Source: a virus
Virus record (IMG/VR): IMGVR_UViG_3300046467_002227
Location: 1 to 40,829 of that record
Length of the DNA stretch: 40,829 bases
Strand: one strand, 5' to 3'
The position numbers and the translations under genes are program-made. Positions 6,801-37,315 of this stretch are shown here, piece after piece. Below the pieces are notes generated by a model that was not told where the DNA came from, did not search any database, and was given only the letters and a program-made list of their open reading frames with translations. Position 1 is the stretch's first letter. The number at the start of each line of letters is the position of its first letter.

Positions 6801-6862
6801 TGTGTCGTCTCCGTTATGGCGCCGCTAGTATAATTAGTTTTAAGTAAATAAATTACTTTTCT

Positions 6863-7093
6863 TTAAGAGGTTTCATAAGCTGCAGCTTCATCTTCATAAG
6901 TGCTGCTTAGCTTTTTTAAGAACCACACGCGGGTATGAATCGGGAGGTTATAGGCTTCTGTGAAGCTCCACCCCCCGTAATGCATTAAAGAAAAAATGTG
7001 CTCGAAGACTGTTTCAATATACTTATCGCTGAGGCCAAAAAAATTCCGCGCTGAGCGGGACCTCCAGTGGAGAAATCTTTCCACAGCCCTCAC
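6863..7093 (-). CDS. C-terminal extension of tail assembly chaperone, made by frameshift
   Basis: This frame overlaps the end of the gp26-like gene and lies just before the tape measure, where lambda gpT and other frameshifted tail-chaperone tails are encoded. Read from 7036 it gives GLSDKYIETVFEHIFSLMHY, then GGWSFTEAYNLPIHTRVWFL, a helical protein like the short chaperones found before tape measures in marine myoviruses. It has no usable start: the first possible codon (GTG 7093) has no Shine-Dalgarno sequence, and the only internal Met is mid-domain. The frame is +1 (equal to -2) relative to the upstream gene, and a run of seven T lies at the junction. Expression as a 335-336 residue fusion is therefore likely. 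The stop is TAA at 6863, 62 bases before the tape measure start. Confidence 0.65.
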   Translation of the reverse strand: MRAVERFLHWRSRSARNFFGLSDKYIETVFEHIFSLMHYGGWSFTEAYNLPIHTRVWFLKKLSSTYEDEAAAYETS

Positions 7094-12064: not shown

Positions 12065-12103
12065 ATAGTGCTAGCTCCTTCAGATGAGAACAAATCTTTT
12101 CTC

Positions 12104-12146
12104 TAATAAATAGTGTGTTATAACCCCAAAGACCCTTAATAAATAG
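12104..12146 (-). promoter_or_regulatory. two CTATTTATTA motifs upstream of the sheath gene
   Basis: The coding strand of the spacer carries CTATTTATTA twice (12113-12104 and 12146-12137), 33 bases apart, between the terminator of the fibre gene and the sheath ATG at 12064. The same core CTATTTA occurs in the spacers at 20813, 23872 and 24360. A phage-specific promoter element is the simplest reading. Read on the other strand it is TAAATAG, close to the T4-late core, so the true direction is not settled. Confidence 0.35.
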
Positions 12147-12180
12147 AAAAACCCCTCCCCAGGAAAACCCAGGGAGGGGC
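12147..12180 (-). terminator. intrinsic terminator after the large tail-fibre gene
   Basis: On the coding strand GCCCCTCCC (from 12180) pairs with GGGAGGGG (to 12152) across a loop containing GGGTTTTCC, followed by TTTTT (12151-12147). The stem is eight G-C-rich pairs with a possible inner extension. It lies 33 bases after the stop of the 1041-residue fibre gene and before the sheath spacer, so it separates the neck/fibre and tail transcription units. Confidence 0.85.
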
Positions 12181-12213
12181 TAAAAAAGGGCATCAAAACC
12201 CTATAAACTCTTC

Positions 12214-15200
12214 CTACTGTTGGTAAGTAGCAATAACAACATCAGTGGCGCTGTTAGCGGTGGCGAACGTGATTAGCCCGTTACCACCATTACCATCTGC
12301 ATCATATACATAGTCCTGGCCAACGCCGCGGCGTTGGAGTAGACCATTCACAAATACCATGATATTAGCATCGCCGGAGGCTCCGGGAGCAGACAAGCTA
12401 TAAGCCGTCTGGGCACCGAGGTCCGTAGCCACTTCATTCCACGAAAGGTTGAGTGAAATAACACCACTAGCGCTCGTCAGACCCGTCGTACCGTTAACCA
12501 GGGCTCCAGCAAAGTTGCTCATGGTCACCGATTTAGACGCATTGGAGTCCGAGGCATCGACGATAGCGACAGAGTCCGCCGAAACGACGGGTGTCACAGC
12601 AGAGAGACCACCCAAGTTAAGAGACAAGGTGTCACCACTCTTGGAGAGACCAGTACCTGCAGAGATACTACCAGCACCAGAGAACTGAGTCCAGTCAATG
12701 TCAGTGGTACCAACCGTAATGGTGGAGTCCTGAGTCATGACAAAACCAGAATCGGCAGCGGCGGAACCTTTCTCGACGAAAGTAAAGGAACCTTTGTCCA
12801 TTTTAGCACTGGTGTTGAAGTCTGTAGCTCTCGTAAGGATAAACGCAGCCCCCCCAGACCCTGCATTAGTTACCGTGTAGATACCGTTAAACGCGGCGTG
12901 TGTCTCGTCCTTGACGAGCACCCGGTCGCTGACCGAAGGTGTAATACCATCTATGCTCAGAGCACCCGAACCGGACGCCGTGAGAGTAGCGCCTACGCCA
13001 GAGGATCCGTTATTATAGCCTGCATCCAGTGTCGCAGTAGTGGCAGCTACGCATGACTCTTTAAGATCCAAGCCCTGCGCAACACTGTCAACATAAGCCT
13101 TGATCGACTGTTGGGTTGCCAAAGCAGTGGCACTGTCGGAGCCCATGGCATCCTCGTCTAGAATTGCCGTGACAGTAGCGCCACTAGCAAGTGCCAAAGA
13201 AGCGGCCGTGGCCGAAGTCGACGCTGTGACGGTAGTGAAACTACCAGCAGCAGCAGTGTTAGCACCAATGACAGCATTGTCAAGCGTGCCACCAAGGATG
13301 CTAGCGGCTGTGAAAGTACCTGTAGTAACAGTACCTAGATTAGCCACAGTGCGACTAGCATTGGTCCAGTTGGAAGCCATGCTGGCAATACCCAATGCAT
13401 TAATCCCAGAAACATCTTTGCTTCCGTCCAAAACAACCGCTTTAGAAGCGAGAGCAGTGCCAGTTGAAGAGCCCATGCCATCGATAACTTCTAAATCAGC
13501 TTCTACCACGTCAGCACTACCAACCGTAAGAGCCCCTACGGTTGCAACCCCTGAGGCGTTGATCGTAGTAGCACCAGCGATTGCGCCGGCGGCTGTGATG
13601 CCTGCACTCTGTAATGCTAAGGCGCCGTCGAGGGTCAGAGACCCAAAGGAAGCTGCCCCAGAGCCCGATACGGTACTTGAAGCAACAAGTGTGGTCACAC
13701 CAGCAAGGGAGCCTGCGGCTGTGACACCTGCACTCTGTAGAGCCAAAGCGCCGTCTAGGGTCAAGCTGCCAAAAGAGGCAGCGCCAGAACCCGAGACAGT
13801 GGTGAATTTACCAGTAGTGGCGCTGTTAGCACCAATAGCAGTACCGTCAATTGCACCAGAGTCGATATTGACGTTAGTCATAGCTTCGTCGGAAAAATCA
13901 ACCGAGCCGGCCTGCTCATAAGCACCAAGCTTGGTGACCGTTAAAGTATCAGTAGCGAAAGTAAAGTCACTATCATCAACAAGTAGGCCGGCTGTGCTGG
14001 CAAACGGCACACGGCCACTTGTCAGACTATCAGCAGTCATCGTGCTAGCACGAAGATCGTAGGCACCGATGTCGACGTTGGCGCTAGCGCCCTGCATGAT
14101 TGCAAGATTCTGAGCTGCAGACGTCGTAAGAGTACCAGCGGACACAGTAAGAGTCTTGCCGGCACCAACGGTAACATCAGACGTAGCAATGGTCGCGCCG
14201 TCGATAGTACCGCCGTTAATGTCAACGGTGGTGACGGTACCCAAGTCAGCCACGGTGCGGCCAGAGTTGGTCCAGTTACTGGACATGCTAGCGATACCGA
14301 GTGCACCGTTCTTGCTTAAACCATAACCACCACCAATGGTGAGTTGGTTACCAGAAAGTCCGAGAGCACCAGAGACAGCACCAGCATCAGAAATGCTAGC
14401 TTTGTCCATGAGTAGTGCGCCCGCAACCTGCGCTTGACCAGAAGTGTACAAGGTAGTAAACGCACCAGAAGCAGGAGTCGTTCCACCAATTGTTGCATCG
14501 ACGGTACCACCGTTGATGTCAACAGTAGTAAGAATACCAGCATCTGCTACAGTTCGTCCAGCATTAGTCCAGTTAGAAGACATGCTAGCAATACCGAGTG
14601 CACCGTTCTTGCTTAAGCCGTAACCACCACCAATAGTGAGTTGATTGCCAGAAAGCCCGAGAGTACCCGAGATGGTGGTTGCGCCGGCGATTGCGCCGGC
14701 GGCTGTGATGCCTGCACTCTGTAATGCTAAAGCACCATCGAGAGTCAAGGACCCAAAGGAAGCTGCCCCGGAGCCCGAGACAGTGCTTGAAGCAACAAGC
14801 GTGGTCACACCAGCAAGGGAGCCTGCGGCTGTGACACCTGCGCTTTGTAAGGCTAGAGCCCCGTCGAGAGTCAGAGACCCAAATGAGCCGGCTCCGGAAC
14901 CCGAGACAGTGGTGAATTTACCAGTAGTGGCGCTGGAGGCGCCAATGGTAGCACCGTCAATTGCGCCGCCGTTGATGTCAACGGTTGTGACAGTACCCAA
15001 GTCGGCAACTGTGTTGCCTGCGTTAGTCCAGTCGTCGCTGAAGGTGAAGCTGCTACCATCCGCAGAAATGGTGTCGAGAGCAATATCACCAACATTGGTG
15101 ATGTTACCCTCAGAGACATTTAATGAAGTGCCGACCAGAGCAGCGAAAGAGCCAGCGGCGGCAGTGTTGGCACCAATGACTGCATTGTCAAGTGTACCAC

Positions 15201-20877: not shown

Positions 20878-22653
20878 TTATACTAGGTCTTTCACTATGC
20901 ACAAACCATACATATCAGGCCTGACCATCTTCTTCGCATAGCGCGTCATGACGCCCTTGCGAGGTACGAAGTCCTCAGGTCCAAAGATGGTGGGGGTGAC
21001 TTGTAGAGGCACGTAAGGTGCGTATACAAAGCCACTTTCCAGGAAGCTATTGCCCTTACGACCAATAAGGACAAGGTTTCTTGGGAAGTAGGGGTCAACA
21101 AAGACATCCCACTTCTTGCTAAGATTACCGACGTTAACAGCACCAATGGTACCCTTATCGTCATCTGCAGTAATATTAGCCCGGAACCCAGCCGTGAACT
21201 CTAGGAGGTTAGCAACCTCCGGAGAAACCACGACGAAGTTTGCACCACCACGGAGTGTCTTCCGATGGATACGCGCTGACACATCGTTGATCGTCTCAAC
21301 GAGAGTCTCGTACCATTCAGAGACAGTACCGGTGAACTCAGGATAACCCTGAGAGTCATTAGCAACCTCTAGCGAGGAGCCGGTCTCACGGTTAACAAAG
21401 TTGCCTGGCAGGCGGGACCAGTAAAGGGTACCGCCAGTGGCGCCTCGGATGAGATCCTCAAGAATCTCGCGGTCAATTTCTAGAGCAATCTGCTCAGAAA
21501 GAATGCTCGTTAACTCTACCTCTGCATCGAGGTTGTGGTAAGCATTCAAATCCTGACCAAGCTCAGGCGTCCACTTAGCCTTGAGCTTCTTGGTGACGGC
21601 TGTCACACTGACCGAGTCGACCTTGATGTCGATTTCTGGGATATCTGCCTGATTTTCCAGGCCCCAGGTATCGGTACCAACGATAGCTCCTAAGCCTCGT
21701 TGTGTCCCCACGGCACTAACCTGAGCAAAGTTATCCGTGATGGGGAAGCCGAATTGTCCGTCACCGTTGTCGGCGGCTCCAGTCAGCTCTGTGAGAAGGC
21801 CCGCGCCTGCGGCGAGACCACCCCATAGACCCTGATCGGTGCTAAGGCTAGCACTAAAGACCATGTTAACAGCCCAGCCACCGTTGCCCGGATCCACCTC
21901 TGTAAGTAACCTTCCGGTTGCTGACGACGTCGGAATATTACTTAACCGACGTACAAGAGACCCACACTCATAAGAACCTGTAGGCGTAATAGCCACCATG
22001 TCCTTGACATTAAATTGACCCCAGTCGGACGCACCCGTCATTTGGACGACAGCTACGTAGCTACCAGATAGGTCGGGATCGTACCCCACCAACAGGTCAA
22101 CATCTCCAGTTTGGTTGTCTGGTACAGCAACTTGGCCGGCTGCAACGGTAAGGAAGTTAGCCTCACCAGAACCAGTCGGGGAAGCATAACCATTATTTAG
22201 GTTATAGAAGCTTCGCGAAGAGTTAAGTCCACCCAAATCAACACCACCAGTTAGCTCTTGGCCCACAACACCACCACCGAAGAGAGAACCATCAGTTGGG
22301 CTCCCTAACTTCGCGGCCTGGAATGTGAAATCCAAGAAGAAAATGAGCCCCGAAGGGAGACTCATTGGTTGCACCGAGACTAGCTCGTTTGCAACTAGGC
22401 TACCAAATACGCGTCGTACAATTGGGAACGCGACAGCAGCAAAGCCCTCGACGTCCCCAGCAGCCATGGTTGAAGCTTCACGAAGAAGCTCCTTTGCTTG
22501 ATTCTCAAGCATGACGGCCATGCCGTCCTTAGTTCGTTCGTTACCTAAACCTTCCAGAAGACCAGTCTTCTCCCACTTATCTCGAAGAGCAGCACCATCC
22601 CGGGAAAGGTTACGGTTAACAATACCTTCTGTTAACTTATTTAATACTGACAT
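20878..22653 (-). CDS. 23: major capsid protein, gp23-like
   Basis: This 591-residue protein carries the gp23 hallmark AFPIVRRVFGSLVANELVSV followed by QPMSLPSGLIFFLDF (about 75-110), and C-terminal features such as RGGANFVVVSPEVANLLE and a closing YAKKMVRPDMYGLCIVKDLV. T4 gp23 is 521 residues and is cut by gp21 after residue 65. Here LLRE|A at 59/60 fits the T4-type (I/L)xE cleavage rule, so residues 1-59 are probably the removed prosegment. It forms the icosahedral shell as hexamers. No separate vertex protein gp24 is seen nearby. It lies between the scaffold gene and a strong terminator. Confidence 0.93.
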   Translation of the reverse strand: MSVLNKLTEGIVNRNLSRDGAALRDKWEKTGLLEGLGNERTKDGMAVMLENQAKELLREASTMAAGDVEGFAAVAFPIVRRVFGSLVANELVSVQPMSLPSGLIFFLDFTFQAAKLGSPTDGSLFGGGVVGQELTGGVDLGGLNSSRSFYNLNNGYASPTGSGEANFLTVAAGQVAVPDNQTGDVDLLVGYDPDLSGSYVAVVQMTGASDWGQFNVKDMVAITPTGSYECGSLVRRLSNIPTSSATGRLLTEVDPGNGGWAVNMVFSASLSTDQGLWGGLAAGAGLLTELTGAADNGDGQFGFPITDNFAQVSAVGTQRGLGAIVGTDTWGLENQADIPEIDIKVDSVSVTAVTKKLKAKWTPELGQDLNAYHNLDAEVELTSILSEQIALEIDREILEDLIRGATGGTLYWSRLPGNFVNRETGSSLEVANDSQGYPEFTGTVSEWYETLVETINDVSARIHRKTLRGGANFVVVSPEVANLLEFTAGFRANITADDDKGTIGAVNVGNLSKKWDVFVDPYFPRNLVLIGRKGNSFLESGFVYAPYVPLQVTPTIFGPEDFVPRKGVMTRYAKKMVRPDMYGLCIVKDLV

Positions 22654-22676: not shown

Positions 22677-23831
22677 TTAATTTTTATTTATTCCCGCTAA
22701 AAGCTTCATCCTATTATATGTTGCGTCACCACCTGAATAAGTTTTTTCTTGGTGGGGCGGTAATATATTGGATGATGCTTTGTTGACCACTTCGCTTAGT
22801 GTTTCTGGCCGTCTCACCTTTGTTGGATAAGAGGCACCCACTGTGCTCTGAAGGGTTTCAAATATCACCTTTGCTTCATTTACTGTAATCGCAGCTGCCA
22901 AAGACTCGACAATTTTAGTTCGTTGCCGCTCATTCAGGGAGCTATCCGACAATATACGATTAGTATACAAAAGTTTAGCATTTGAAAGATTTACTTCGTT
23001 TAGCTTATCTTTCAACTGCATTAAGATTGTTTTAATTTTTTTATTTTCATTCGTTAATCGAATGCTTTGAGTTGTCAAATCGTCATTCTCCTCATTCAGG
23101 AGGGAATGACTTTCTTGTAATTCTTTTACTTGTCTCATCTGCATCCCATTCAACCGATTATCGGTATCTTGAATGCTGGCTTCATCGTCTACTAGTTCTT
23201 CAGTAGCTTCGGCCTGCAGCACACCTAAATCGATATCACTTATAGGAGTTTCCAACCATCCGGACTTTTGAGGGTTGATGTCGACAACGATTTTTTCAAC
23301 TATGCTGTCAATTAATTCATCAGGTATGTCCGTCGACATATCTTCCCCTTCCAGAAGTTCTTCTATGAGATCGGGCGTAATATTGAGTTGGGTTTCTGCA
23401 TCTTCCTTGAGAAGAATTTCTTCTTCTAATGCATCAAAATCGATTTCCAAGACTTCTTCCAACGGAGCAGCAACGTTAGTTAGTTCTACTTTAACCTCGC
23501 CGGCACTGTCAACATCGCGGCCGTCAACCTGTTCTTCGATGTCCGGGCATGGGCACAAGCCCTCGGCGGGTGGCACCTCAGGGACGTTGTCGTCTCCGCC
23601 AGTGTCACCGCTCTCTTCCCCCATCAGTGTTTGATCCATAGGGGGCATTGAAAGTGGGGGCTCTGCGAGTTGGTCCATACCCATGTCGGGCTCTTGCTCA
23701 TTTAAAAGTAGATTTACAGCTTCTCTAATTTCAACAGAATACTTTTCAAGTACCGCTGACTCCGCATTTTTCATTGCTGCCTCTTTCAGAGCTTCAGCGT
23801 CTACAATTGCTTGTTCTAACAAAGATGACAT
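22677..23831 (-). CDS. 22: prohead core scaffolding protein, gp22-like
   Basis: This 384-residue, very acidic protein lies directly before the capsid gene, as 22 lies before 23 in T4. Residues 45-220 are Glu/Asp/Pro-rich and look disordered; 230-285 form a coiled coil; and 283-330 (SNAKLLYTNRILSDSSLNER, QRTKIVESLAAAITVNEAKV, IFETLQSTVG) match the conserved C-terminal signature of gp22-like scaffolds. Such proteins form the inner core of the prohead and are later degraded by the gp21 protease. T4 gp22 is 269 residues, so the acidic region is enlarged. A CPCP pair at about 93-96 is unexplained. Confidence 0.8.
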   Translation of the reverse strand: MSSLLEQAIVDAEALKEAAMKNAESAVLEKYSVEIREAVNLLLNEQEPDMGMDQLAEPPLSMPPMDQTLMGEESGDTGGDDNVPEVPPAEGLCPCPDIEEQVDGRDVDSAGEVKVELTNVAAPLEEVLEIDFDALEEEILLKEDAETQLNITPDLIEELLEGEDMSTDIPDELIDSIVEKIVVDINPQKSGWLETPISDIDLGVLQAEATEELVDDEASIQDTDNRLNGMQMRQVKELQESHSLLNEENDDLTTQSIRLTNENKKIKTILMQLKDKLNEVNLSNAKLLYTNRILSDSSLNERQRTKIVESLAAAITVNEAKVIFETLQSTVGASYPTKVRRPETLSEVVNKASSNILPPHQEKTYSGGDATYNRMKLLAGINKN

Positions 23832-25602: not shown

Positions 25603-26211
25603 TTAATCCTCTAATGCTTCGTTAAGAGCACGATTAATGCGATCTGCTTTTGTAAAAATATCTCGACTTCTGAGCTTACTTTCTTGAAGGGCCATATATG
25701 CACCGGGCGTGGAGGGCTCAGAGACCATGTCAAAGCATATTAATTGGAAGTCATCATTAACGGTCACGGCGCCTTGGGCTTCGGTAACAGATCCTAAACC
25801 TCTTGAAGAAATTCCAAGTTGGACACCAGAATCAACTAAGGAGCGTAGGATATTTCCAGAGGGAGTGTCTAAAACTTTAAGTTTACCCATTACGCTCTTG
25901 TCTTCCATCCAAATATCGGTAACCATATGTGACGCATTACGAAGATTGACAACAGAATCATCAGGGTGGTCTAATTCCCCGATTGCACGGTTTTCCCCGA
26001 CGACCTTTTGATAGTTTTTCACTTCTCTCGATAAAGTTTCCTGAGGGTATACCCGACCATTGCCGTTCTGGACTTCAGCCTCCTGAAGCTTGCCCGAAAG
26101 CATCATCCCGCCATCTTTCACAAACCTCTTCTCGTCCTCCGTTAAGAGATCGTGACAAACCCCCCCATCACATAAAGCGTAATATTCTCGTAGTACAAAT
26201 TTCTTATTCAT
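25603..26211 (-). CDS. 21: prohead core maturation protease, gp21-like
   Basis: This 202-residue protein (T4 gp21 is 212) has the family marks NGNGRVYPQETLSREV near residue 49, ENRAIGELDHPDDSVVNLRN with catalytic His82, and GVQLGISSRGLGSV with the candidate Ser at 135/136. The protease cuts scaffold, capsid and internal proteins at (I/L)xE sites during head maturation and then itself. It is encoded before the scaffold and capsid genes, as in T4. The ATG at 26211 has no Shine-Dalgarno sequence. Instead a short leader ORF with a strong site ends ten bases upstream inside a hairpin, so translation is probably coupled to that leader. Confidence 0.88.
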   Translation of the reverse strand: MNKKFVLREYYALCDGGVCHDLLTEDEKRFVKDGGMMLSGKLQEAEVQNGNGRVYPQETLSREVKNYQKVVGENRAIGELDHPDDSVVNLRNASHMVTDIWMEDKSVMGKLKVLDTPSGNILRSLVDSGVQLGISSRGLGSVTEAQGAVTVNDDFQLICFDMVSEPSTPGAYMALQESKLRSRDIFTKADRINRALNEALED

Positions 26212-26341: not shown

Positions 26342-26587
26342 TCAAGGCGCCGTGACGCGTCGGCCACCGGCTGACTTACCTCCGCCGCGGCGGTCGGCCA
26401 AGTCTTTGCCTGAAGCTTCATCCACAATCTCTTCGCCGTCATCGCTTTCAAGCTCTTCTTGTTGTACTTCTGCTTTCTTCCGGCGTTCGGCGGCTGCAAC
26501 CTCTCGCGGACGGACCGGCTCACTCTCCATAACCTTCTGTAACTCTTCACGAATAATCTGTTTTAAACGCGCTTGTGTAATTCTCAT
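26342..26587 (-). CDS. small charged phage protein (81 aa)
   Basis: It starts MRITQARLKQIIREELQKVM behind GGAGATAAAA. This amphipathic N-terminal helix resembles the opening of many small marine-phage proteins (MKITxxxLKQIIKEEL-like). The rest is rich in Glu, Lys, Arg and Ala and ends Gly/Arg-rich (DRRGGGKSAGGRRVTAP), so it is probably disordered. It overlaps the end of the upstream membrane protein by four bases. The helix contains IRE followed by E, which loosely fits a prohead-protease site. Function unknown. Confidence 0.6.
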   Translation of the reverse strand: MRITQARLKQIIREELQKVMESEPVRPREVAAAERRKKAEVQQEELESDDGEEIVDEASGKDLADRRGGGKSAGGRRVTAP

Positions 26588-28307: not shown

Positions 28308-30248
28308 TTAACTTTGCTCCGTTTTATCTTTTTTCTCTAACCCTTCCAAAAGAACTTTCACTTCCCTATTGATGCGAAAAACCCTTTCTTCTTCATTATT
28401 ATAAGTAGTTTCCTTTTGTTCGTAAATACCATGTCCAAGCGGCTCAAGACCTGTTATGCTTGCAACGCTACGTTTGCGCGCGCCGGCTGAGCGCTTATCA
28501 TGCGCGCCGGGCTTGTGCCATTTGCCCTTGGCTGCACGAGTCGTGGAAGCCACGTTTTTACCTGTGACATCGGTCGCTGAGACCTTATGCCACTTAGCTG
28601 TGTTAACCGTATCCCGTTTCCCCGGGGATTCTGGAGGCGCCCCTTCATCCGGGCTGCCCGGTAACAACACACTATCTTCCTCTGACCCTGGTGAGGCATC
28701 GAGAGGAGCATTTTCAAGGTCTATTTCTTCTTCCGGGAGTGGTGGAGGCATCCCCGTGTCGTCCATCGGGGGGAGACCGCCGCCACCTGGGCTTGGCATT
28801 ACAGCTTCTTGAGCGATGACCTCTAACTGAGCATTGAACTTGGCATCAAAAAACATTTCTCTTTGATTTCTCACAATCTCCTCATCACTAAGGTTAAACA
28901 GCTTTTTAGCTATCCAGCGCTTACTGAAGAATCCTTCAGTCGCGGTTGCTGCTGCGTCGAACTTAGCCTTCCAATGGTCGATTTCTTGTAGTTCTGCTAA
29001 CTTGGAAGGATTGGCTAACCTGATGTCAAACGAAACTAAATCATATTCTCGAAAACCAAGAGTATATAAATGTATTACGCCAATCTTTTCTAATTCCGCT
29101 GTCACAGCACGTTGAAGCCTCTGGATGGTGCGAGCGAATCTTATATCTTTCTGGGCAAGAGTACCTTTGTCCTCTTCAGCCCCATCGCCCCGAGACAAAT
29201 AGGACTGCGGAATTTTCAGAGCTGAGAACAACTTATCACGTAAATACTTTACGTCTTCAATATCACCAGTATATGTGCCGCCGGCTAAAGTATCGATCTT
29301 CGAAGATGAACCCCCTCGCACAGGTATAAAATAATCTTCATCTATACTCATGGGATTATAACGCAAGTCTACACGACCTGTGCTGGGATCGATAACTTGA
29401 TTACGCTTCATCTGCGTAACAACTTTTTGCATGTATTGGTCAACATCTTCTACGCCTATGTTACCAACATCGATATAGAACACCCTTCTTTCAGGGGAAC
29501 GCACAATCCGGTAGGCCATCATTGCGTCTTCAAGTAAAATTAGCTGGCGCCAGATGCGTCTGGCTGGCTCCATAATAGATGTACCATAAGGAGCGTACTT
29601 GTCATTCCCCAAGATACGAAAATGTGCGATCTGCCAGTTTTCGAATGTCAAACCACCCGAGTTCCACTGAAATTGTACGTAATTAGGGTTTGATTTATCT
29701 TCCCCTTCTAAACGTTCAATTTCTACAGGAGGGAGTCCAATCACATTAGTAATCCCCTGGGTTTCATCAATGTCTAAATAAAGAAAATAATCCCCATATT
29801 TGCACATGGTGCGACACCAGCCAAACAGATTGAATTCAGCATTCAAAATATTGTGATACAAAGTTTCGAGAATAGACTTGATCTCTTCATTTGAACAGTC
29901 GATTACCAGCAGCGGGTTAAGATTAGTTGAGGTAGTCATCTCATCCGCGTAGATATCTAATGTTGAGGCAATCTCTGGGGTGTATTCCATTTGATCGAAA
30001 TCCACGTAACGATCACCTCTGTTCTGATTACGGAGATAGTTTGATTGCATCCCCGCAAAGGGGTTGTATTCGGTTTTCTTGAAAGAAAGGCCGCCGGCTG
30101 ATTGGAATTTATATTTATCCAGTTGGATGCGCCGTAATTGGCGTGGGGTCTGCCGTCTATAATTAGTGAGAGGCCCCGAGAGGAGGCGCGTTAACTTTCG
30201 AAAAAGTTGAGCGTTGGGGTTGCGTGTATTTTTACTTCTGTCAGCCAT
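28308..30248 (-). CDS. 20: portal protein, gp20-like
   Basis: This 646-residue protein (T4 gp20 is 524) has the marks of T4-type portals: DRYVDFDQMEYTPEIASTLD then IYADEMTTSTNLNPLLVIDC, NLFGWCRTMCKYGDYFLYLD, GTSIMEPARRIWRQLILLED then AMMAYRIVRSPERRVFYIDV, YFIPVRGGSSSKIDTLAGG and LFSALKIPQSYLSRGDGA. It forms the dodecameric ring through which DNA enters and leaves and on which the prohead starts. The C-terminal 140 residues are Pro/Glu/Gly-rich followed by a basic stretch and are longer than in T4. It lies directly after the terminase gene. Confidence 0.92.
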   Translation of the reverse strand: MADRSKNTRNPNAQLFRKLTRLLSGPLTNYRRQTPRQLRRIQLDKYKFQSAGGLSFKKTEYNPFAGMQSNYLRNQNRGDRYVDFDQMEYTPEIASTLDIYADEMTTSTNLNPLLVIDCSNEEIKSILETLYHNILNAEFNLFGWCRTMCKYGDYFLYLDIDETQGITNVIGLPPVEIERLEGEDKSNPNYVQFQWNSGGLTFENWQIAHFRILGNDKYAPYGTSIMEPARRIWRQLILLEDAMMAYRIVRSPERRVFYIDVGNIGVEDVDQYMQKVVTQMKRNQVIDPSTGRVDLRYNPMSIDEDYFIPVRGGSSSKIDTLAGGTYTGDIEDVKYLRDKLFSALKIPQSYLSRGDGAEEDKGTLAQKDIRFARTIQRLQRAVTAELEKIGVIHLYTLGFREYDLVSFDIRLANPSKLAELQEIDHWKAKFDAAATATEGFFSKRWIAKKLFNLSDEEIVRNQREMFFDAKFNAQLEVIAQEAVMPSPGGGGLPPMDDTGMPPPLPEEEIDLENAPLDASPGSEEDSVLLPGSPDEGAPPESPGKRDTVNTAKWHKVSATDVTGKNVASTTRAAKGKWHKPGAHDKRSAGARKRSVASITGLEPLGHGIYEQKETTYNNEEERVFRINREVKVLLEGLEKKDKTEQS

Positions 30249-30251
30249 TTA

Positions 30252-31835
30252 TCATCCTTTGTACAACCATTTAAATGGTGTAACGGTTTTAGCAATATCT
30301 TCTTCCATGTATTTGTTGGTTTTGTCGTATCCAATCATACCGGGGATCCGCGTGTCAAAATTAGTGCTGGTTACTACCATCGAATCCAAGAATGCCTTCT
30401 TATAGTTTAACTCTCTTTCGTTCACAGTTAAAACAGTATCTTTCACCCAACACCCGATTGCCATACTCATCATCAAATCATCGTTGTAACCACGCATAGC
30501 TTTAGCTCTTCCGTTGTACCAAATAAAGGTTTTGGCCTCGCTAAGAAACCTGGAAGAGTATAAAATAATATGCTTGTTACGAATAAACTCTTCTAGCTTA
30601 GCGATTATCAAAGGCTTTGTCCTGGTGGATGTCGTAAAGCCGGCGATTGAATTGGAGACCATCTCAGCCTCAAACTGATCCAGATATTCATGACTCCCTT
30701 TGGTAGAATAATATATGTTAGGGTATTCCATTTCGGCCAACTTATCCAAAACCGTAAACCCCACTGTAGCGTTTTCGACCACAACCATGCAATTTCCATA
30801 TTCTCGGCCCGTAGTATTAACCAAATTGGAAAATAAATCAGGTGTCAGTTTACCACGATATTCTGCTGCTTGTTCCATAGTTTCTAGTTTGATAATTTGA
30901 AAAGTGGAATAATCCTCACCGTCGCCCCTGGCCACGTCTGCTGATAGCAAATATGTGCTGTCTTGTTGGTACTCCTCCCAAATCCACAAATTTCTGTCAA
31001 AGGCTGTTTTATATTTCGGCTCTTTTATGGTTTCGTTTATCCACGCAATGTCGTCAGGGTGTAAAACTGTCTCTCCTGACGTATTGAAGTTACACTGTAG
31101 CTCTTGTGCGATCTGGCGACGTGACATGTTTTTAGTTTCTTTTTCAAACCAAGTATCATCGCGGTCGGGGTGAACATCCCAAACTAGTTTGGTTGGAAAA
31201 AAATCATTATTTCCTGCGGAAGCGTCTGTATACGTCTTGTAAAACCAATTGCCAACGCCATTAGGACTAGAAAGAGCAACACAGTTGCCACCCGTTGACA
31301 ATGTGGGGTAAAGAGCGGTCCATATGTCATCGAGTCCGTCGACATGTGCAGCCTCGTCAATAACCAGAAGAGACAATGCTTCCGAACGCCCTGCGTCTAC
31401 GCTCGTTGTAGACGCTTTAATCTGAGATCCATTGTTTAGCTCGAACGACGTACGGTTATCGACAGAAATTTCTGCAATTCGCACCCACGGAGGTAGCTGC
31501 TTTATCATCGCTTTTACTTTTTTAACCAAGTTAGCAGCGGTCCCAAATTTAGTAGCCATGACCAAGATATTTTTATCTCGGTAAAAAAGCATCATCCAAA
31601 CAATGTATGCTGCCACTATAGTTGATATTCCCAATTGACGTGCTTTGAGGATCACGTTAAACCGGTAATCTACAAAGTTTTCTAATAATTCTGCTTGATA
31701 TTGGTAGGTTTTGAAAGGGACGAGACCTCGCACTGGATGTGAGATCTTAGTATAGTTGTTTATGAAATAGACGGGGTCTTTACCAGATTTAACAATTTCC
31801 TTGGTAATTTGTTTTTTGGTTAATTGGTAGCTCAT
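30252..31835 (-). CDS. 17: terminase large subunit, gp17-like
   Basis: This ATP-driven DNA packaging motor with headful nuclease is 527 residues (T4 gp17 is 610). Seen motifs are a Walker A variant KARQLGIST (64-72), Walker B LLVIDEAAH (156-164), a coupling motif near ALSSPNGVGNWFY (188-200), and the RNase H-like nuclease residues D300 in LLSADVARGDGEDYS, E354 in MVVVENATVGF and D452/D453 in RGYNDDLMMS. All catalytic parts are present. The shorter N-terminus lacks most of the T4 lead region. No clear Shine-Dalgarno sequence precedes the ATG. No small terminase subunit was recognised in the window. Confidence 0.94.
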   Translation of the reverse strand: MSYQLTKKQITKEIVKSGKDPVYFINNYTKISHPVRGLVPFKTYQYQAELLENFVDYRFNVILKARQLGISTIVAAYIVWMMLFYRDKNILVMATKFGTAANLVKKVKAMIKQLPPWVRIAEISVDNRTSFELNNGSQIKASTTSVDAGRSEALSLLVIDEAAHVDGLDDIWTALYPTLSTGGNCVALSSPNGVGNWFYKTYTDASAGNNDFFPTKLVWDVHPDRDDTWFEKETKNMSRRQIAQELQCNFNTSGETVLHPDDIAWINETIKEPKYKTAFDRNLWIWEEYQQDSTYLLSADVARGDGEDYSTFQIIKLETMEQAAEYRGKLTPDLFSNLVNTTGREYGNCMVVVENATVGFTVLDKLAEMEYPNIYYSTKGSHEYLDQFEAEMVSNSIAGFTTSTRTKPLIIAKLEEFIRNKHIILYSSRFLSEAKTFIWYNGRAKAMRGYNDDLMMSMAIGCWVKDTVLTVNERELNYKKAFLDSMVVTSTNFDTRIPGMIGYDKTNKYMEEDIAKTVTPFKWLYKG

Positions 31836-31867: not shown

Positions 31868-32458
31868 TTACTGATCTCTCTTGCCAGTCACATTTTTGGG
31901 TTTATCTGATCCCGGGTAAGTCGTGTTACCATAAAGTCCACTGCCAACCGCCTTCTTATCAGTATCGATGGCTAAAAACTTTTTAAACGCTTCCTCGGGG
32001 CCTTCCCGACTCGGTTGTTCTATTCCTTCCACACCGGTGAGGCCTCCGATCTTGTAGTCTCGGTGAGCTTGCACCCAAGTACGTAGACGAGATAAATTTT
32101 GGACGAGCATCTCTGCATCTCCTTCAGGTGTTAAAGATAATGCATTCCCTGTTGCTTTTTTATATTCTGATTTGATAAAATCAGCTATGTCTTGAATGGT
32201 TGATTCAATCTCGCCTTCGAATTTGTTAGTGTCGTGCACCTGCTTTAGACGTACTTCCGAACTATACTTAAGACGCAAGACCGGGCCGCGGAAAGATATG
32301 GTAAACCCATCCATAACCCTTGAATCTATAATCGGATCCCCTTCTTCTCGGTTTAGGCCCAGTTTAATGGGTTGCCCCTTGTCATCAAGCGCCCCATCAA
32401 AAGCCTTCTGTGACATTACTGTTGAAATGCCGTTCAATATATCCATTACATTAGCCAT
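31868..32458 (-). CDS. conserved phage protein upstream of the terminase (196 aa)
   Basis: It carries QKAFDGALDDKGQPIKLGLN then REEGDPIIDSRVMDGFTISF, VRLKQVHD and FEGEIESTIQDIADFIKSEY, a pattern I recall next to terminase genes in marine T4-like phages. The fold looks mixed alpha/beta, with no membrane segment. Function unknown; a virion or packaging-associated role is suggested only by position. It is not similar in length or pattern to T4 gp16, the small terminase. The ATG overlaps the previous stop (TAATG). Confidence 0.6.
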   Translation of the reverse strand: MANVMDILNGISTVMSQKAFDGALDDKGQPIKLGLNREEGDPIIDSRVMDGFTISFRGPVLRLKYSSEVRLKQVHDTNKFEGEIESTIQDIADFIKSEYKKATGNALSLTPEGDAEMLVQNLSRLRTWVQAHRDYKIGGLTGVEGIEQPSREGPEEAFKKFLAIDTDKKAVGSGLYGNTTYPGSDKPKNVTGKRDQ

Positions 32459-33399
32459 TATATTACCCCTCTTTGTTTAAGTAGTCTTCTAGTCTCTTCT
32501 TTGATAGTCCTAAATATATTTTCATACATTTCTTCTTCCGGTGGGGACTCGGCTTCAATCCCCATTTTTTCTAACCAATCATTAAATTGTTCGTCTGACC
32601 AGTTCTCTGACCCATCTGGTAGGTTCGGCGCTTCGGGTTCCTCACCGTGGTATACCAAGTCATCGACTGGTGCCTGCTGTGCAGGGGCCTCGGGCTGGTC
32701 GCCCACCGTTTCCAACTCCTCAGGGTATTCTGCCGGCTCACCCTCCCCTTCTGCTGCGACTGTTTCGTTCGCGGAATCAATAATCTGCTCGATTATTGTG
32801 ATCACGCCCGTCGCGCTGAGCGCGCCGACGGCGAATGGCAAGAACATATTTTTTATCACTTCATCCTTTTGTTTTCCTTGAGAAACCTCAAGTTGTACTT
32901 TGTTGATTACATCAGACAACGCTTTCTTAAATGCGGGTGAATTTGGTGCTTTACTATGGTCCACAAAATCTTTGCCTTCTATCGATAATTCCCCCTCCAG
33001 CGCTGTCCCATGTTGTCTGAGGGCCCGACGGGCTGCAACTAATTCATCCCTCCTGGTTAAAGCGCGTATCTCTTGACTAATCGTCTTAAGATCTCCAAGA
33101 CCTAGATTCATTTGTCTGGGGTCTCGGCTAACTTTTCGTCCACGACGAGAAACGTAATTTTCAACAAATTCCCTTACGGCGTTTTCACCTTGCGTCCACG
33201 CCTGTTGTAATTTATCAGCGCGTACCCCGTTTGTCAACTGGCGATAATACTCGGATATATCCACCGGGTCGACGCCAGCGCTGTTAAGCAGATCGTAGAC
33301 TGTCTTCCTAAGTTGTTTAAGTTGCTCGGGTCTTGGACGAGGAACTTCGTGTAGAAAATACCGAGGATCGCGTCTTCTTTGATTTTGTTTATATCTCAT
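32458..33399 (-). CDS. DPRYFLHE-tagged protein with one membrane segment (313 aa)
   Basis: It starts MRYKQNQRRRDPRYFLHEVP, closely matching the start of the preceding gene's product. Residues 20-180 are charged and helical, 185-204 (LPFAVGALSATGVITIIEQI) form a likely membrane segment, 210-290 are acidic and Pro-rich, and the end is a basic helix (NIFRTIKEETRRLLKQ). No enzyme motif is seen. The tag ends FLHE, which fits an (I/L)xE prohead-protease site, so an internal capsid protein delivered with the DNA is one possibility. It is separated by two bases from the upstream stop. Confidence 0.65.
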   Translation of the reverse strand: MRYKQNQRRRDPRYFLHEVPRPRPEQLKQLRKTVYDLLNSAGVDPVDISEYYRQLTNGVRADKLQQAWTQGENAVREFVENYVSRRGRKVSRDPRQMNLGLGDLKTISQEIRALTRRDELVAARRALRQHGTALEGELSIEGKDFVDHSKAPNSPAFKKALSDVINKVQLEVSQGKQKDEVIKNMFLPFAVGALSATGVITIIEQIIDSANETVAAEGEGEPAEYPEELETVGDQPEAPAQQAPVDDLVYHGEEPEAPNLPDGSENWSDEQFNDWLEKMGIEAESPPEEEMYENIFRTIKEETRRLLKQRGVI

Positions 33400-33401
33400 G
33401 C

Positions 33402-35258
33402 TTATTGAGTACTCCGTAATTTCAGTTTCATTTTTTTAACCCGGGGGCCCTGGGCACAACCTTCTTGTAACGGACTCCCCATGGGATCTTTGAGCGCTTC
33501 CTTGGCCTTCTTCGCCGCTGCCGCGGCTTTCGCCGCTTTCGCCTTCATCGCCTTCTCCGCATCCTTAAACTCTTTTGGAGTGAGACAACGGCTGGCTCGC
33601 TTCGTGACATCTGTGATGGCCTTGCCCTCGTGATCTTCCCAGGTTGAAGCTAGAACAATGTTACCAAGGCCCAGCTCTTTGGCATCCAACTCATAGCATT
33701 TTCGTTGGATGCCCTCGGCATCGTCAGGGCAGTGATCACAGAAAGCTTTGCCGGCGCCCCCTGTGAAACAATCCCTGGGATTGTTTTTCAACCCTCCGCA
33801 TGAAACGCCCTTGCCGGTCGAGCGCTTGCGATGGGCCGCTGCCGATTGCTTCAGCGCGACGGCGCGGATTTCAGGCGACGCGAAGGAGCAGAAGGCCTTC
33901 GTCGTTTTTACCAGTTGAAGCTCTGGTACCCAGCCTGGCTCGGCGTCGGAGGGGGGCGCAATGTTACGGTTGATTATCTCTTGCACTCTATTTATCAATT
34001 TAGGGTTAAGTTGTTTTGGCTCCCCTTTGACTTGACGCTCCGCATATGCTTTCTCAATGTCGATGTCAAGGATCTCCGCCCACGCCTGAGGGCATGCTAG
34101 AGTATACATTATCGTCTGATGGTCTAATTGGAACTCGCCACCGGTACGAGCCACAAAATCATACTCCCTTGGAAGAACACAAAAGCTATGCTTAGGGTTA
34201 CCCGTGACAGTATTGATAGTTGTGCGGCTGCGGTCGGCGCCCTTCGCTTTGGGGTTTAGGGCCCACCTTTTCTTAGCGCGCCCGAACCCACAGAACTCTT
34301 CTACTACGTACTCAATATCCTGGTCAAATCCGAGGGCGCCCTGGATCCATTGCCATACACGATTAGCGGTTTTCTGCGCTTCGCCCGTGAGGTTGTGGGC
34401 CGCCAAGGCAATCATCGTGATCACGATGCCATATCCTATTATGGGTTTGAGGTTGGTTGCCCAGCCTGCGCCTTGGAGCGATCCGCTGATGCCCAAAAGA
34501 AAAGTAAGCAATACAGGGTTCACTACCCGGGCCGCCTTGCTGTCTCCGAGCGGCTGAGATGGGGTGGTACCAAGCTGTGCGTGTGCGTCTAGAGTTTCGT
34601 TTATTATTCGGCGTGCTTCTTCATATTCCACCCTAGTTCTACCATCTTCACCCTTTACTTCCACTTTACGGATTTTATCAATAGCAGCTCTCAGTTCTTG
34701 CCACTCAAGGCCGGTGCCGTCGGCCCCGCCGCGGGTCACGTCGGTTACCAATTTATCTAGATCGTCTGCAGTAAGCACGGGCGCCTTAATACCCTTCCTA
34801 TGATCGTCGTAAGCTTCTTTGTCCTTCCTCCATGTTTTGACATCTTGTAAATATTTTTCTTCCTTCCGGTCCCAAACGCGTTGGTGCTGCTCCCAAGTGG
34901 GGTCGGTCCCGCTCCAGGGGCCGGTAGCGGCAGTGGGGCGCTCATTTTGAAGTCTATGATGAGGAGTTGGTGGAGAAAGAGGATTCCTTGGGCGGCCGCC
35001 CTGTTTAGATAGTTGCACCGCTTTCATCGCGGTGACCACTTGCTCCTTGGTTTCTTTTGTTCTGAGCATGCCCTTGACGAGCCTTGTCAGAGGTGCGCTT
35101 ACAGCCTCCAGTGCGTCCCATTTGGCCCTCCGGATGAGCCTTTTGTTTAATATAGGGATGCCGCCGGCGGCCTCGATGATAACCAGTGCGTCACGATTTG
35201 CGGTTTCATGCAAGAAGTAGCGAGGATCTATTCGTCTTTTATTTTTTCTGTAAGCCAT
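33402..35258 (-). CDS. DPRYFLHE-tagged protein with hydrophobic pair and Cys-rich end (618 aa)
   Basis: It starts MAYRKNKRRIDPRYFLHETA. After a charged, Pro-containing region (85-160) and helices come two hydrophobic segments (about 246-265 and 272-290) that may insert in a membrane. The second half holds many cysteines (C323, C360, C389, C457, C487, C497, C507, C510, C521 and C558 by my count), including FCDHC, and an Ala/Lys-rich helix near 565-590. I recognise no enzyme. The shared tag, size and membrane segments would suit an internal virion protein that helps DNA enter the cell, but this is inference. The start lies inside the end of the zinc-ribbon gene. Confidence 0.65.
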   Translation of the reverse strand: MAYRKNKRRIDPRYFLHETANRDALVIIEAAGGIPILNKRLIRRAKWDALEAVSAPLTRLVKGMLRTKETKEQVVTAMKAVQLSKQGGRPRNPLSPPTPHHRLQNERPTAATGPWSGTDPTWEQHQRVWDRKEEKYLQDVKTWRKDKEAYDDHRKGIKAPVLTADDLDKLVTDVTRGGADGTGLEWQELRAAIDKIRKVEVKGEDGRTRVEYEEARRIINETLDAHAQLGTTPSQPLGDSKAARVVNPVLLTFLLGISGSLQGAGWATNLKPIIGYGIVITMIALAAHNLTGEAQKTANRVWQWIQGALGFDQDIEYVVEEFCGFGRAKKRWALNPKAKGADRSRTTINTVTGNPKHSFCVLPREYDFVARTGGEFQLDHQTIMYTLACPQAWAEILDIDIEKAYAERQVKGEPKQLNPKLINRVQEIINRNIAPPSDAEPGWVPELQLVKTTKAFCSFASPEIRAVALKQSAAAHRKRSTGKGVSCGGLKNNPRDCFTGGAGKAFCDHCPDDAEGIQRKCYELDAKELGLGNIVLASTWEDHEGKAITDVTKRASRCLTPKEFKDAEKAMKAKAAKAAAAAKKAKEALKDPMGSPLQEGCAQGPRVKKMKLKLRSTQ

Positions 35259-35637
35259 TAATGTCTGGTCTCCAGCCTTCTTTTAACCATCTCTCTTCTC
35301 GTCCCTCAACCCACTCAACATAGCAGGAATGGCAACATTCATATTTATCCATGTAAAGATCATCTTTAAGCTCAAATGAATACACACGACACACAGGACA
35401 ATTTCTACTACTATCCTTATTAAGTAGTTGTTTTGAGACTAAAAAACCATTTGTTTCCACCTTTTCAGTCTGGTCTTTTTTCTTGATATCTTTTTTATAT
35501 TGTTTTTTTAATTGCTCAAGATATTCTTTTTCTTTGGCCTCGTCCCAATTTGCTTTTGGGTTCTGAATTGTTTCATCGCCGTACTTTTGCTTAATGGCTT
35601 TTTCGATGGCTGCAATTTTGTTGAGGTCTTTTTTCAT
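35239..35637 (-). CDS. zinc-ribbon protein (132 aa)
   Basis: A Lys-rich helical N-terminus (1-60) is followed by CPVCRVYSFELKDDLYMDKY and ECCHSCYVEWVEGREERW. Cysteines 80, 83, 102 and 105 (with 101) can bind one zinc as two CxxC knuckles. Closely similar ribbons occur in marine T4-like phages as proteins of unknown function. Its end overlaps the start of the next gene by 20 bases. The basic N-terminus could bind nucleic acid, but nothing shows which. Confidence 0.7.
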   Translation of the reverse strand: MKKDLNKIAAIEKAIKQKYGDETIQNPKANWDEAKEKEYLEQLKKQYKKDIKKKDQTEKVETNGFLVSKQLLNKDSSRNCPVCRVYSFELKDDLYMDKYECCHSCYVEWVEGREERWLKEGWRPDINGLQKK

Positions 35638-35639
35638 TT

Positions 35640-36275
35640 TTAGGTAGATTCATCAAATTCGATCACGACGGTTGCTGTAACATAGTCTAGTGGATCCGTC
35701 GACTCTAAATTAAGGTGCAGAACATCTCCTTTACTAAAAGTGTTTGCAGAGAACGTACCTGTGTATGTGACGTTAAACGCTGCCATAGTCACAGTTTGAG
35801 TTTCCATGGCAGTGCCACTATTGTTTTTGTGTACCCCGATAACTGTACTACCCGGGACGTCGCCGGAGCCATTGGAGAGAACTGAGACTGATATAAATTT
35901 CCCATCGTACGGCGCAATCATGCTGTTTCTCATTGTACCCAGGGAGCCGGCTGAAACTGACTGGGTTCTAGTATAATACACCCAGGGCATATAGTAGCCT
36001 CCAGACGGGGCGCCGGAGGTCGAGCTAGCATATAAGGCAAAGATGTGATTTTTTAAATCACCTCCTCCGCCGACTGCAACTTCTGTTCCGGTACTATCCT
36101 TGTAATAGAGTTTTGTAGTACCAGAGTCGTCTTTAGCATATAGGACAATTTCTTGAGCACCAGCACGAATACTGGGCGCAGTCGTCTGTTCTGAGAGGTA
36201 TAGATAATTCCGCGTGACATCACGTATAAACTGTCGTAGCCTACCTATGGTCCAGCCACTTAACGACCTTCCCAC
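35640..36275 (-). CDS. fibre/virion surface protein with jelly-roll-like C-terminus (211 aa)
   Basis: The best start is GTG 36275, which overlaps the upstream stop by one base (TAGTG) and has GAGG ten bases before it; an in-frame extension to 36356 would overlap the upstream gene and is Trp/Cys-rich. The N-terminal part (TIGRLRQFIRDVTRNYLYLS, then AQEIVLYAKDDSGTTKLYYK, followed by a glycine run) looks like a phage fibre module. The C-terminal part (APYDGKFISVSVLSNGSGDV, GSTVIGVHKN, SKGDVLHLNLES, VTATVVIEFDE) is a beta sandwich seen at the end of other marine phage surface proteins. It sits outside the main tail module, beside the lysis-like genes. Confidence 0.65.
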   Translation of the reverse strand: MGRSLSGWTIGRLRQFIRDVTRNYLYLSEQTTAPSIRAGAQEIVLYAKDDSGTTKLYYKDSTGTEVAVGGGGDLKNHIFALYASSTSGAPSGGYYMPWVYYTRTQSVSAGSLGTMRNSMIAPYDGKFISVSVLSNGSGDVPGSTVIGVHKNNSGTAMETQTVTMAAFNVTYTGTFSANTFSKGDVLHLNLESTDPLDYVTATVVIEFDEST

Positions 36276-36724
36276 TAATTTACAACCTCGACTGATGCGT
36301 AGAAGATCGTGATTGAGGTAATAATACCAACAGCAACCCCACCAGCAAACCACCAATGACCATATTCGTTTGGGCGACTAAGAGCCACCTGGCTAAGTCT
36401 TTCAATCTCTTCATCTTTTATCCTCAGTATTGAATCAAGTGTCGTTTTGGAGGCGTCCAACCTTGCATTGACGCTGGCAATTAATAAGTCGCACCTGGCC
36501 TTCTCCCTTTGTTCAAGGTATTCCTGCGTCAACTTGCACTGGTTCGCTTCCCCTTCCTTCTCTGCGATTGTGTGGGCCACAGCCGCCGGATTCAGAAGGG
36601 TTCCTGCAAATGGCGCTTTCTGGCCTTGTGCCAGTGTGACCACTTTTGGCTCGGTTTGTGCACGAACCAAAGTAGGTGCCGCAAAAAAAAACAATGACAA
36701 TAGTAATATACTAGCCTTCTTCAT
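36275..36724 (-). CDS. signal-peptide protein with C-terminal membrane anchor, lysis-associated candidate (149 aa)
   Basis: From ATG 36724 the protein has a clear signal peptide (KKASILLLSLFFFAAPTLVR, cut near VRA|QT), a periplasmic helical region (about 50-115) and a C-terminal membrane segment (WWFAGGVAVGIITSITIFYA). This outline parallels phage unimolecular spanins, which join outer and inner membranes at lysis. However, those carry a lipobox cysteine after the signal peptide and this one does not. A TTG 12 bases upstream is less likely. It overlaps the upstream gene by 14 bases. Spanin-like is inference; export and anchoring are well supported. Confidence 0.6.
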   Translation of the reverse strand: MKKASILLLSLFFFAAPTLVRAQTEPKVVTLAQGQKAPFAGTLLNPAAVAHTIAEKEGEANQCKLTQEYLEQREKARCDLLIASVNARLDASKTTLDSILRIKDEEIERLSQVALSRPNEYGHWWFAGGVAVGIITSITIFYASVEVVN

Positions 36725-37118
36725 AGTGTATCCCAAATGTTATCTTTAAAAGTTGTGTTAAGTGTTCAGGATCGTCGTGGTAATCTCTAACCAAGGATTT
36801 GATACGCTTCTTCTTGTGGGCATCCAATGCAATATTTCGAGCACGGTATTCCTCATCCACCTTTTTAATAACTTCGTTGTAATGTGTCACAATCTCATCT
36901 CTTTTTTTAATCTCTTTTTCATGAACTTCTTGAAGTATATCCACTTGTTTTTTATAGCTTTCTTTAGTAATGCTTAATACTTCTAATACTGACTTCCCAT
37001 CACGACGGAACACTTTCATCATAATCAAAGTGTACATTAAAAGTACCGGCACATACCAATACGTCTTGAGCCACGTCCAGATCTTTTTGAGAATATGCCT
37101 AGCGCTAATCCAGTTCAC
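36711..37118 (-). CDS. N-anchored coiled-coil protein, i-spanin-like candidate (135 aa)
   Basis: The start is GTG 37118, overlapping the holin-like stop (GTGA). A membrane segment (about 18-35, TYWYVPVLLMYTLIMMKVF) is followed by a long charged coiled coil (45-115, SYKKQVDILQEVHEKEIKKR). This is the outline of Rz-type inner-membrane spanins, though any small anchored coiled-coil protein would look alike. Its place between a holin-like gene and a signal-peptide protein supports a role in lysis. Confidence 0.55.
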   Translation of the reverse strand: MNWISARHILKKIWTWLKTYWYVPVLLMYTLIMMKVFRRDGKSVLEVLSITKESYKKQVDILQEVHEKEIKKRDEIVTHYNEVIKKVDEEYRARNIALDAHKKKRIKSLVRDYHDDPEHLTQLLKITFGIHYEEG

Positions 37119-37315
37119 TTACCATGCTTCCATGCCATAGCAGCGTCAACAAACGCCTGCGTCCCGACATAGGCCAAAGCTATAGCAACCCACTGATCTC
37201 CGTTAATATCACCATGTGCCAATAACGCAGTTGATACAACCCATACTAATAGTTTCCTACTAGAATATCGCGCAATAACTTTATCTGCTGCCCCTTTTAC
37301 ATCACTCACTGTCAT
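37115..37315 (-). CDS. holin-like small membrane protein (66 aa)
   Basis: It has two hydrophobic segments (about 20-36, RKLLVWVVSTALLAHG, and 42-60, WVAIALAYVGTQAFVDAAMA) separated by the turn DINGDQ, with charged ends, as in class II holins. Similar short proteins are annotated as holins in marine phages. It is the first of three membrane or exported proteins in a row and overlaps the acidic gene by 14 bases. No endolysin lies in the window. Confidence 0.6.
   Translation of the reverse strand: MTVSDVKGAADKVIARYSSRKLLVWVVSTALLAHGDINGDQWVAIALAYVGTQAFVDAAMAWKHGK

Follow-up and report, generated by a model that had tools for sequence, protein, structure and literature searches.

Two unrelated proteins with the same N-terminal tag

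We analyzed a viral DNA stretch of 40,829 nucleotides (IMG/VR record IMGVR_UViG_3300046467_002227; hereafter the window, meaning the whole stretch) in which two adjoining genes of the minus strand encode proteins of 618 and 313 amino acids. These proteins begin with MAYRKNKRRIDPRYFLHE and MRYKQNQRRRDPRYFLHE, respectively (Table 1). Both open reading frames were confirmed, and the two products have this 18-residue N-terminal tag in common and nothing else: residues 11-18 (DPRYFLHE) are identical, residues 19-25 all differ and nothing is alike from residue 19 onward. This confirms the sequence-only reading, which had noticed unrelated proteins carrying a common tag. The codons of the two copies differ synonymously at seven of the 18 tag residues and non-synonymously at five. 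Within DPRYFLHE, however, five of the eight codons differ synonymously and none differs non-synonymously, which shows selection on the peptide rather than a recently copied stretch of DNA. A relative that is 78% identical to the 313-aa protein (L001) retains the tag and the body of the protein, with about 12 residues scrambled after the tag.

Neither protein presented a match in Pfam, PHROGs or phage records (weak sub-threshold matches were disregarded), so their function cannot be obtained from homology of the sequence behind the tag. The AlphaFold models of both proteins are of too low a quality to be used (pLDDT of 42.6 and 41.1, respectively).

Distribution of the tag

We scanned IMG/VR with degenerate DNA patterns for the tag, using the core 8-mer as the search criterion. 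The invariance of the core in the resulting set is therefore by construction, but the N-terminal position, the basic flank, the cargo diversity, the gene slots and the linker sites are not. The scan yielded 216 instances of DPRYFL[HN]E in about 195 loci or contigs, and the reversed peptide, searched with equal degeneracy, gave zero matches. Exactly 10 residues separate an ATG from the motif in 156 of these instances, and all but a handful of the others lie 8-17 residues after one. The tag was found on 190 complete proteins (median length of 143 aa), which form 87 unrelated clusters based on single-linkage BLAST of the sequence beyond the tag, hereafter the cargo. Very short frames account for some of the clusters, and requiring at least 60 residues of cargo leaves 82 families. 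The tag thus belongs to a large family, and not to a pair as the sequence-only reading had it.

Upstream of the searched 8-mer, the residues RKNxKRI are conserved, and the information drops after the Glu. All 83 aligned representatives of the cargo families have DPRYFL, the Glu and the flanking RKN/R positions in common, the 8-mer itself having been searched for. The leader consensus spans about 18 residues, RKNxKRxDPRYFL[HN]E, and we refer to it as the class A tag. Each of the two window proteins was found to contain one hydrophobic region, as had been read from the sequence. Hydrophobic segments were also considered as a general trait of the tagged proteins and rejected, since only six of the 82 families present them.

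The tag was not detected by tblastn in 50,697 phage records, which are mostly isolates and from which records very near the window were possibly excluded. In a local control with a database of equal size, these queries recovered 220-232 of the IMG/VR tag loci, so the absence of the tag from the phage records is informative. The pattern RxDPRYFL[HN]E presented four matches in bacterial and archaeal genomes (257 Gb), none of them shown to be N-terminal: in two, roughly 130 and 270 residues of an open frame precede the motif, in a third 26 residues precede it and the basic context of the tag is missing, and the remaining one (L260) was not resolved. The phages carrying the tag are uncultured marine relatives of phage T4. 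The terminase and the capsid protein of the window are closest to those of Flavobacterium phage immuto and Microcystis phage Mel-JY01, and the identity of only about 42-44% points to a deep, uncultured T4-like lineage.

Co-occurrence with the prohead protease and its cleavage motif

The gp21-like protease that had been recognized in the window is indeed present and belongs to the Peptidase_S77 family (Table 1). We surveyed 37 tag-bearing records, namely the window and all those of at least 50 kb, and found Peptidase_S77 above the curated cut-off in 30 of them (the window and 29 others). Of the seven records without S77, five have no T4 portal either, and the other two stop at the portal and 2.5 kb beyond it, respectively; in a further set of records, portal and S77 were always found together. 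An S77 protease is present wherever a tag-bearing record covers the T4-type head genes. The sequence-only reading had named a wide occurrence of the tag in phages devoid of a T4-type protease as an outcome that would refute it, and this was not observed.

The gp21 protease of T4 cuts after L/I-x-E (PMC9026906). Defining the linker as the 22 residues after the tag, we found (L/I)xE in the linkers of 56 of the 82 families, relative to a mean of 27 and a maximum of 41 across 2000 shuffles, and in only 7-8 of the 82 families in later segments further downstream. When G, A or S was imposed after the Glu, 30 families presented the motif (shuffle mean of 6.8; maximum of 16). The control motifs (L/I)xD and (V/M/F/A)xE were not enriched in the linkers. 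The predicted bond of the linker mostly lies 5-14 residues past the tag. The FL[HN]E of the tag fits L-x-E as well. The earlier proposal of a cut after FLHE is supported as regards a site of the (L/I)xE type near the tag, but the cut is probably not always at FL[HN]E, which is mostly followed by Thr and has a separate (L/I)xE↓(G/A/S) site 5-14 residues on. In the capsid protein, LL(R/K)E↓(A/S) (the arrow marks the bond) was found in all six tag-bearing genomes examined. In the window it reads LLRE59↓A60, which bears out the site claimed at position 59/60.

In phage T4, the internal protein IPI is cut at ITE↓A. The T4 genome (NC_000866) indicates that IPI begins with MKTFKEF and presents ITE↓A further on, and that the leaders of IPII and IPIII read MKTYQEFIAE↓A. 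Because T4 displays both arrangements, a cut at the end of the leader and a cut apart from the tag, the 618-aa protein would probably be cut at Glu29↓Ala30, with Glu18↓Thr19 as the second candidate. In the leader of IPIII, residues 4 and 7 serve targeting and residues 8 and 10 serve cutting (PMC9026906).

Gene slots and cargo

We assigned the tagged genes to slots by labelling their neighbor genes with the proteins of the window. Of these, 110 (31 cargo clusters) lie between gp20 and gp21 or next to the marker genes of that stretch, and 43 (18 cargo clusters) lie before gp17 beside relatives of the genes w132 and w196, as in the window. The other 62 (39 cargo clusters) were found elsewhere or remained unassigned. 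No cargo cluster is common to the gp20-gp21 slot and the pre-gp17 slot. In T4, gp67 and gp68 occupy the gp20-gp21 slot. Within a slot, the DNA encoding the tag is 88% identical, as compared to 33-57% upstream and 28-47% downstream; between slots, it is about 70% identical with an invariant core. This island of tag DNA between diverged flanks is consistent with an exchange of cargo behind a fixed leader.

One class A gene (L157:9060-9722) encodes an S-adenosylmethionine (SAM) lyase (PF23780; E = 6e-14; 52.5 bits relative to a cut-off of 28). Its cargo presents GSY, EES and CQD in the same order as the G-x-Y, Glu and Gln of the Svi3-3 active site (PMC7877911), a comparison based on order and not on structure, and it has no PDB match by sequence. 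SAM lyases are anti-restriction enzymes of phages and were first found as counter-restriction enzymes (PMC7877911). Many tagged proteins are acidic and of low complexity past the tag.

Table 1. Tagged genes, head genes and predicted protease sites of the window
Feature	Positions	Strand	Basis or remark
w132, upstream of the tagged pair	35239-35637	-	relatives flank tagged genes elsewhere (slot before gp17)
Tag of the 618-aa protein	35205-35258	-	N-terminal; open reading frame and codon comparison
Predicted linker site of the 618-aa protein, I27-I28-E29↓A30	35169-35180	-	enrichment of the linker motif; predicted cut
Tagged protein 1, 618 aa	33402-35258	-	hydrophobic region at about 242-290; no Pfam or PHROG match
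Tag of the 313-aa protein	33346-33399	-	N-terminal; open reading frame, codon comparison and relative L001
Tagged protein 2, 313 aa	32458-33399	-	hydrophobic segment at about 185-207; helix-rich in the low-confidence model
w196, between the tagged pair and gp17	31868-32458	-	slot marker in relatives
Large terminase, gp17-like	30252-31835	-	similarity search
Portal, gp20-like, Portal_T4	28308-30248	-	profile match
81-aa protein, class C tag MRITQARLKQIIREELQKVMESE	26342-26587	-	slot before gp21, where relatives have class A genes
Prohead protease, gp21-like, Peptidase_S77	25603-26211	-	Pfam PF03420, E = 4e-30
Acidic scaffold, gp22-like	22677-23831	-	identified by position and N-terminus; may serve to dock the tag
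Predicted protease site of the capsid protein, L57-R58-E59↓A60	22474-22485	-	motif in the sequence
Major capsid protein, gp23-like	20878-22653	-	similarity search

Two observations concern genes close to the tagged pair. Residues 20-29 (approximately) of the gp17 of the window read KDPVYFINNY, which loosely resembles DPRYFLNE and could represent mimicry or coincidence. On the other side, between positions 36275 and 37315, small membrane or signal-peptide-like proteins (37115-37315, 36711-37118 and 36275-36736) resemble a lysis cassette of holin and spanin type.

Proposed role of the tag and alternative explanations

From the tag, its modularity, its co-occurrence with the protease, the gene slots and the motif enrichment, we infer a route of docking, packaging, cutting and ejection. 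The first 18 residues or so (RKNxKRxDPRYFL[HN]E) would act as a capsid-targeting propeptide. Late in infection, the tag would bind the core of the prohead, most likely its acidic gp22-like scaffold, and unrelated cargo proteins would thereby be built into the prohead. The S77 (gp21-type) protease of the phage itself would then cut after (L/I)xE, usually 5-14 residues past the tag and perhaps in some cases at FL[HN]E. The mature cargo would be freed inside the head, ejected with the DNA and active at once in the new host. In our view, the tag likely guides proteins into the prohead and serves as a substrate of the S77 protease; that the tagged cargo is actually ejected into the cell is somewhat less likely, but still probable. 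The sequence-only reading is thus supported in part, by the modular tag, the co-occurrence with the protease, the position in the head module and the linker motif; the pair proved to be a large family, the cut is probably not always at FLHE, and hydrophobic segments are not general among the tagged proteins.

Several points weigh against this route. To our knowledge, neither proteomics of the virions nor sequencing of N-termini is available for these phages. The likeness of the tag to the capsid-targeting sequence (CTS) of T4 is limited to F-(I/L)-x-E, and 57 of the 82 families have Thr after FL[HN]E, unlike the Ala or Ser of the capsid protein. In the 313-aa protein, the linker is devoid of (L/I)xE over about 25 residues, and only FLHE18 fits nearby. 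Apart from the SAM lyase, nearly all class A cargo is without a recognizable domain. The 618-aa protein has a large cargo, but T4 Alt is of similar size. Finally, because T4 keeps gp67 and gp68 in the gp20-gp21 slot, some tagged proteins may be parts of the core rather than effectors.

This last point can be extended to the whole set: the tagged proteins could be fast-evolving core or scaffold proteins that use the tag to enter the core and are then digested without being delivered. The 110 tagged genes beside gp20 and gp21, in the slot of T4 genes 67 and 68, the acidic and low-complexity composition of many tagged proteins, and the fact that gp67 and gp68 are likewise substrates of gp21 (PMC9026906) all agree with such a role. 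However, essential core proteins would not be expected as 31 unrelated cargo clusters in one slot, nor would a SAM lyase be expected among them, and the pre-gp17 slot and remote gene clusters hold tagged genes as well. In addition, core proteins are cut many times, whereas (L/I)xE falls to background past the linker. We therefore regard this explanation as unlikely. A tag that docks proteins to the portal, the terminase or the DNA during packaging, without proteolysis, would fit its basic residues (RKNKKR), the adjacency of tagged genes to gp17 and gp20, and the DPxYF found near the N-terminus of gp17, including that of the window. Yet the likeness to gp17 is short, and docking would explain neither the specific enrichment of (L/I)xE past the tag nor the strict presence of S77, which makes it very improbable.

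The tag might also be devoid of function. A recent duplication or recombination that copied one 5' end onto two genes would account for the high identity of the tag DNA within a slot relative to its flanks. The purely synonymous divergence of the core contradicts this: the window copies differ at seven synonymous sites and yet encode the same core peptide, the tag DNA is only about 70% identical between slots, with an invariant core, and the tag is carried by 87 cargo families. We give this explanation hardly any weight. Even less credit can be given to a chance resemblance of two basic N-termini, which is refuted by the pattern counts and by the zero matches of the reversed peptide.

Other repeated N-terminal tags

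Two further repeated N-termini were identified in these genomes. Class B, MKLLLENWRKYLNE, was found about 1-5 times per genome relative to about zero predicted from its interior density, and class C, MKITKxxLKxIIKEEL, several times per genome relative to 0.4-1.5 predicted in the same way. Class B was found at G027 (L277:10738-14545), G016 (L307:16314-19006) and G024 (L283:10396-16946) and at 119 loci in IMG/VR, with 90 unrelated cargo clusters. Its cargo presented matches to NUDIX, kinase, zeta-toxin-like, acetyltransferase, HNH and papain-like-toxin-fold proteins; a SET match comes from the combined class B and C set. The (W)xx(F/Y)(L/I)xE of class B can be aligned with Y4xxF7I8xE10 in the leader of T4. 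The linkers of class B are not enriched in (L/I)xE (15 of 87, the same as background), and any cut of class B proteins would therefore have to fall at their own (F/Y)LxE. Class C was found in the window (26342-26587) and at L308:831-1531, L294:4846-6877 and L283:5365-7639. The C-terminus of the 313-aa protein, EEEMYENIFRTIKEETRRLLKQRG, recalls the class C helix, though at the opposite end of the protein. The literature that we searched mentions neither DPRYFL, DPRYFLNE, ENWRKFL/ENWRKYL nor the class C strings.

Class A tags outside the gp20-gp21 slot adjoin genes with other repeated N-terminal tags, and across six large genomes five of the seven class A genes lie within two genes of a class B or C gene (permutation P = 0.0005). 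The contig encoding the SAM lyase also carries two class B genes. We hypothesize that classes B and C are further targeting tags. More tentatively, with the odds leaning slightly against it, marine far-T4 phages might use a general code for loading the virion, in which interchangeable tags A, B and C, often on neighboring genes, bring several to over a dozen effectors per genome into the head for delivery, among them kinases, NUDIX proteins, the SAM lyase, zeta-toxin-like proteins, acetyltransferases and SET-domain proteins.

The closest isolated relative, immuto (L262), presents a repeated N-terminus of its own, MENFDLKKFLVENKLTxNS, on four genes, two of which lie just before gp17. Its gene before gp21 begins ...FSKEHFIAEAR, to be compared with FIAEAR of the T4 leader. 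The loci concerned are 5632-6932 and 11579-12661.

Comparison with known systems

If our interpretation is correct, the class A tag adds a new, short peptide to the known targeting sequences, and head-packaging assays could test it directly. It would also constitute a handle by which proteins of uncultured ocean phages that are predicted to be delivered from the head can be listed directly in metagenomes, in parallel with the use of the T4 leader for the internal proteins of T-even phages. Since most of the cargo is unrecognized and the T4 precedents inhibit restriction systems, these proteins would then form a reservoir in which functions in counter-defence or host takeover are likely.

The closest parallel is the CTS of T4 IPI, IPII and IPIII. 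In both systems a short N-terminal leader is common to otherwise unrelated proteins of one phage group, with an F-(I/L)-x-E core, an (L/I)xE site of gp21 type and an S77 protease in the same phage, and in both the cargo is hypervariable and includes anti-restriction proteins (PMC9026906, PMC12373910). The T4 leader, MKT[YF]xEF[IT]xE, differs from RKNxKRxDPRYFL[HN]E in sequence and length; because the sequence that defines the T4 leader is lacking here, we call the tag a CTS-like new variant, which would work like the CTS without being a member by sequence. The class A system further differs by its far wider cargo, by its uncultured marine clade and by a packaging that is predicted from sequence.

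T4 Alt, a large packaged ADP-ribosyltransferase processed by gp21 with removal of an N-terminal propeptide, offers a counterpart in size to the 618-aa protein, for which no domain or relative was found. The gp67 and gp68 proteins of T4, which are gp21 substrates, occupy the same gp20-gp21 slot as most class A genes in relatives, but they have no common tag, and the slot contents in tagged phages are mutually unrelated: rather than a single conserved core protein, the slot holds 31 unrelated cargo clusters. By role, and not by sequence, the tagged cargo can be likened to DarA, DarB and Hdf of phage P1, anti-restriction (defence-against-restriction) proteins that are carried in the head. In SPN3US and phiKZ, a prohead protease related to gp21 removes the propeptide of ejection proteins (PMC5694885); these propeptides are mostly longer than 100 residues and, unlike class A, do not form one common short tag.

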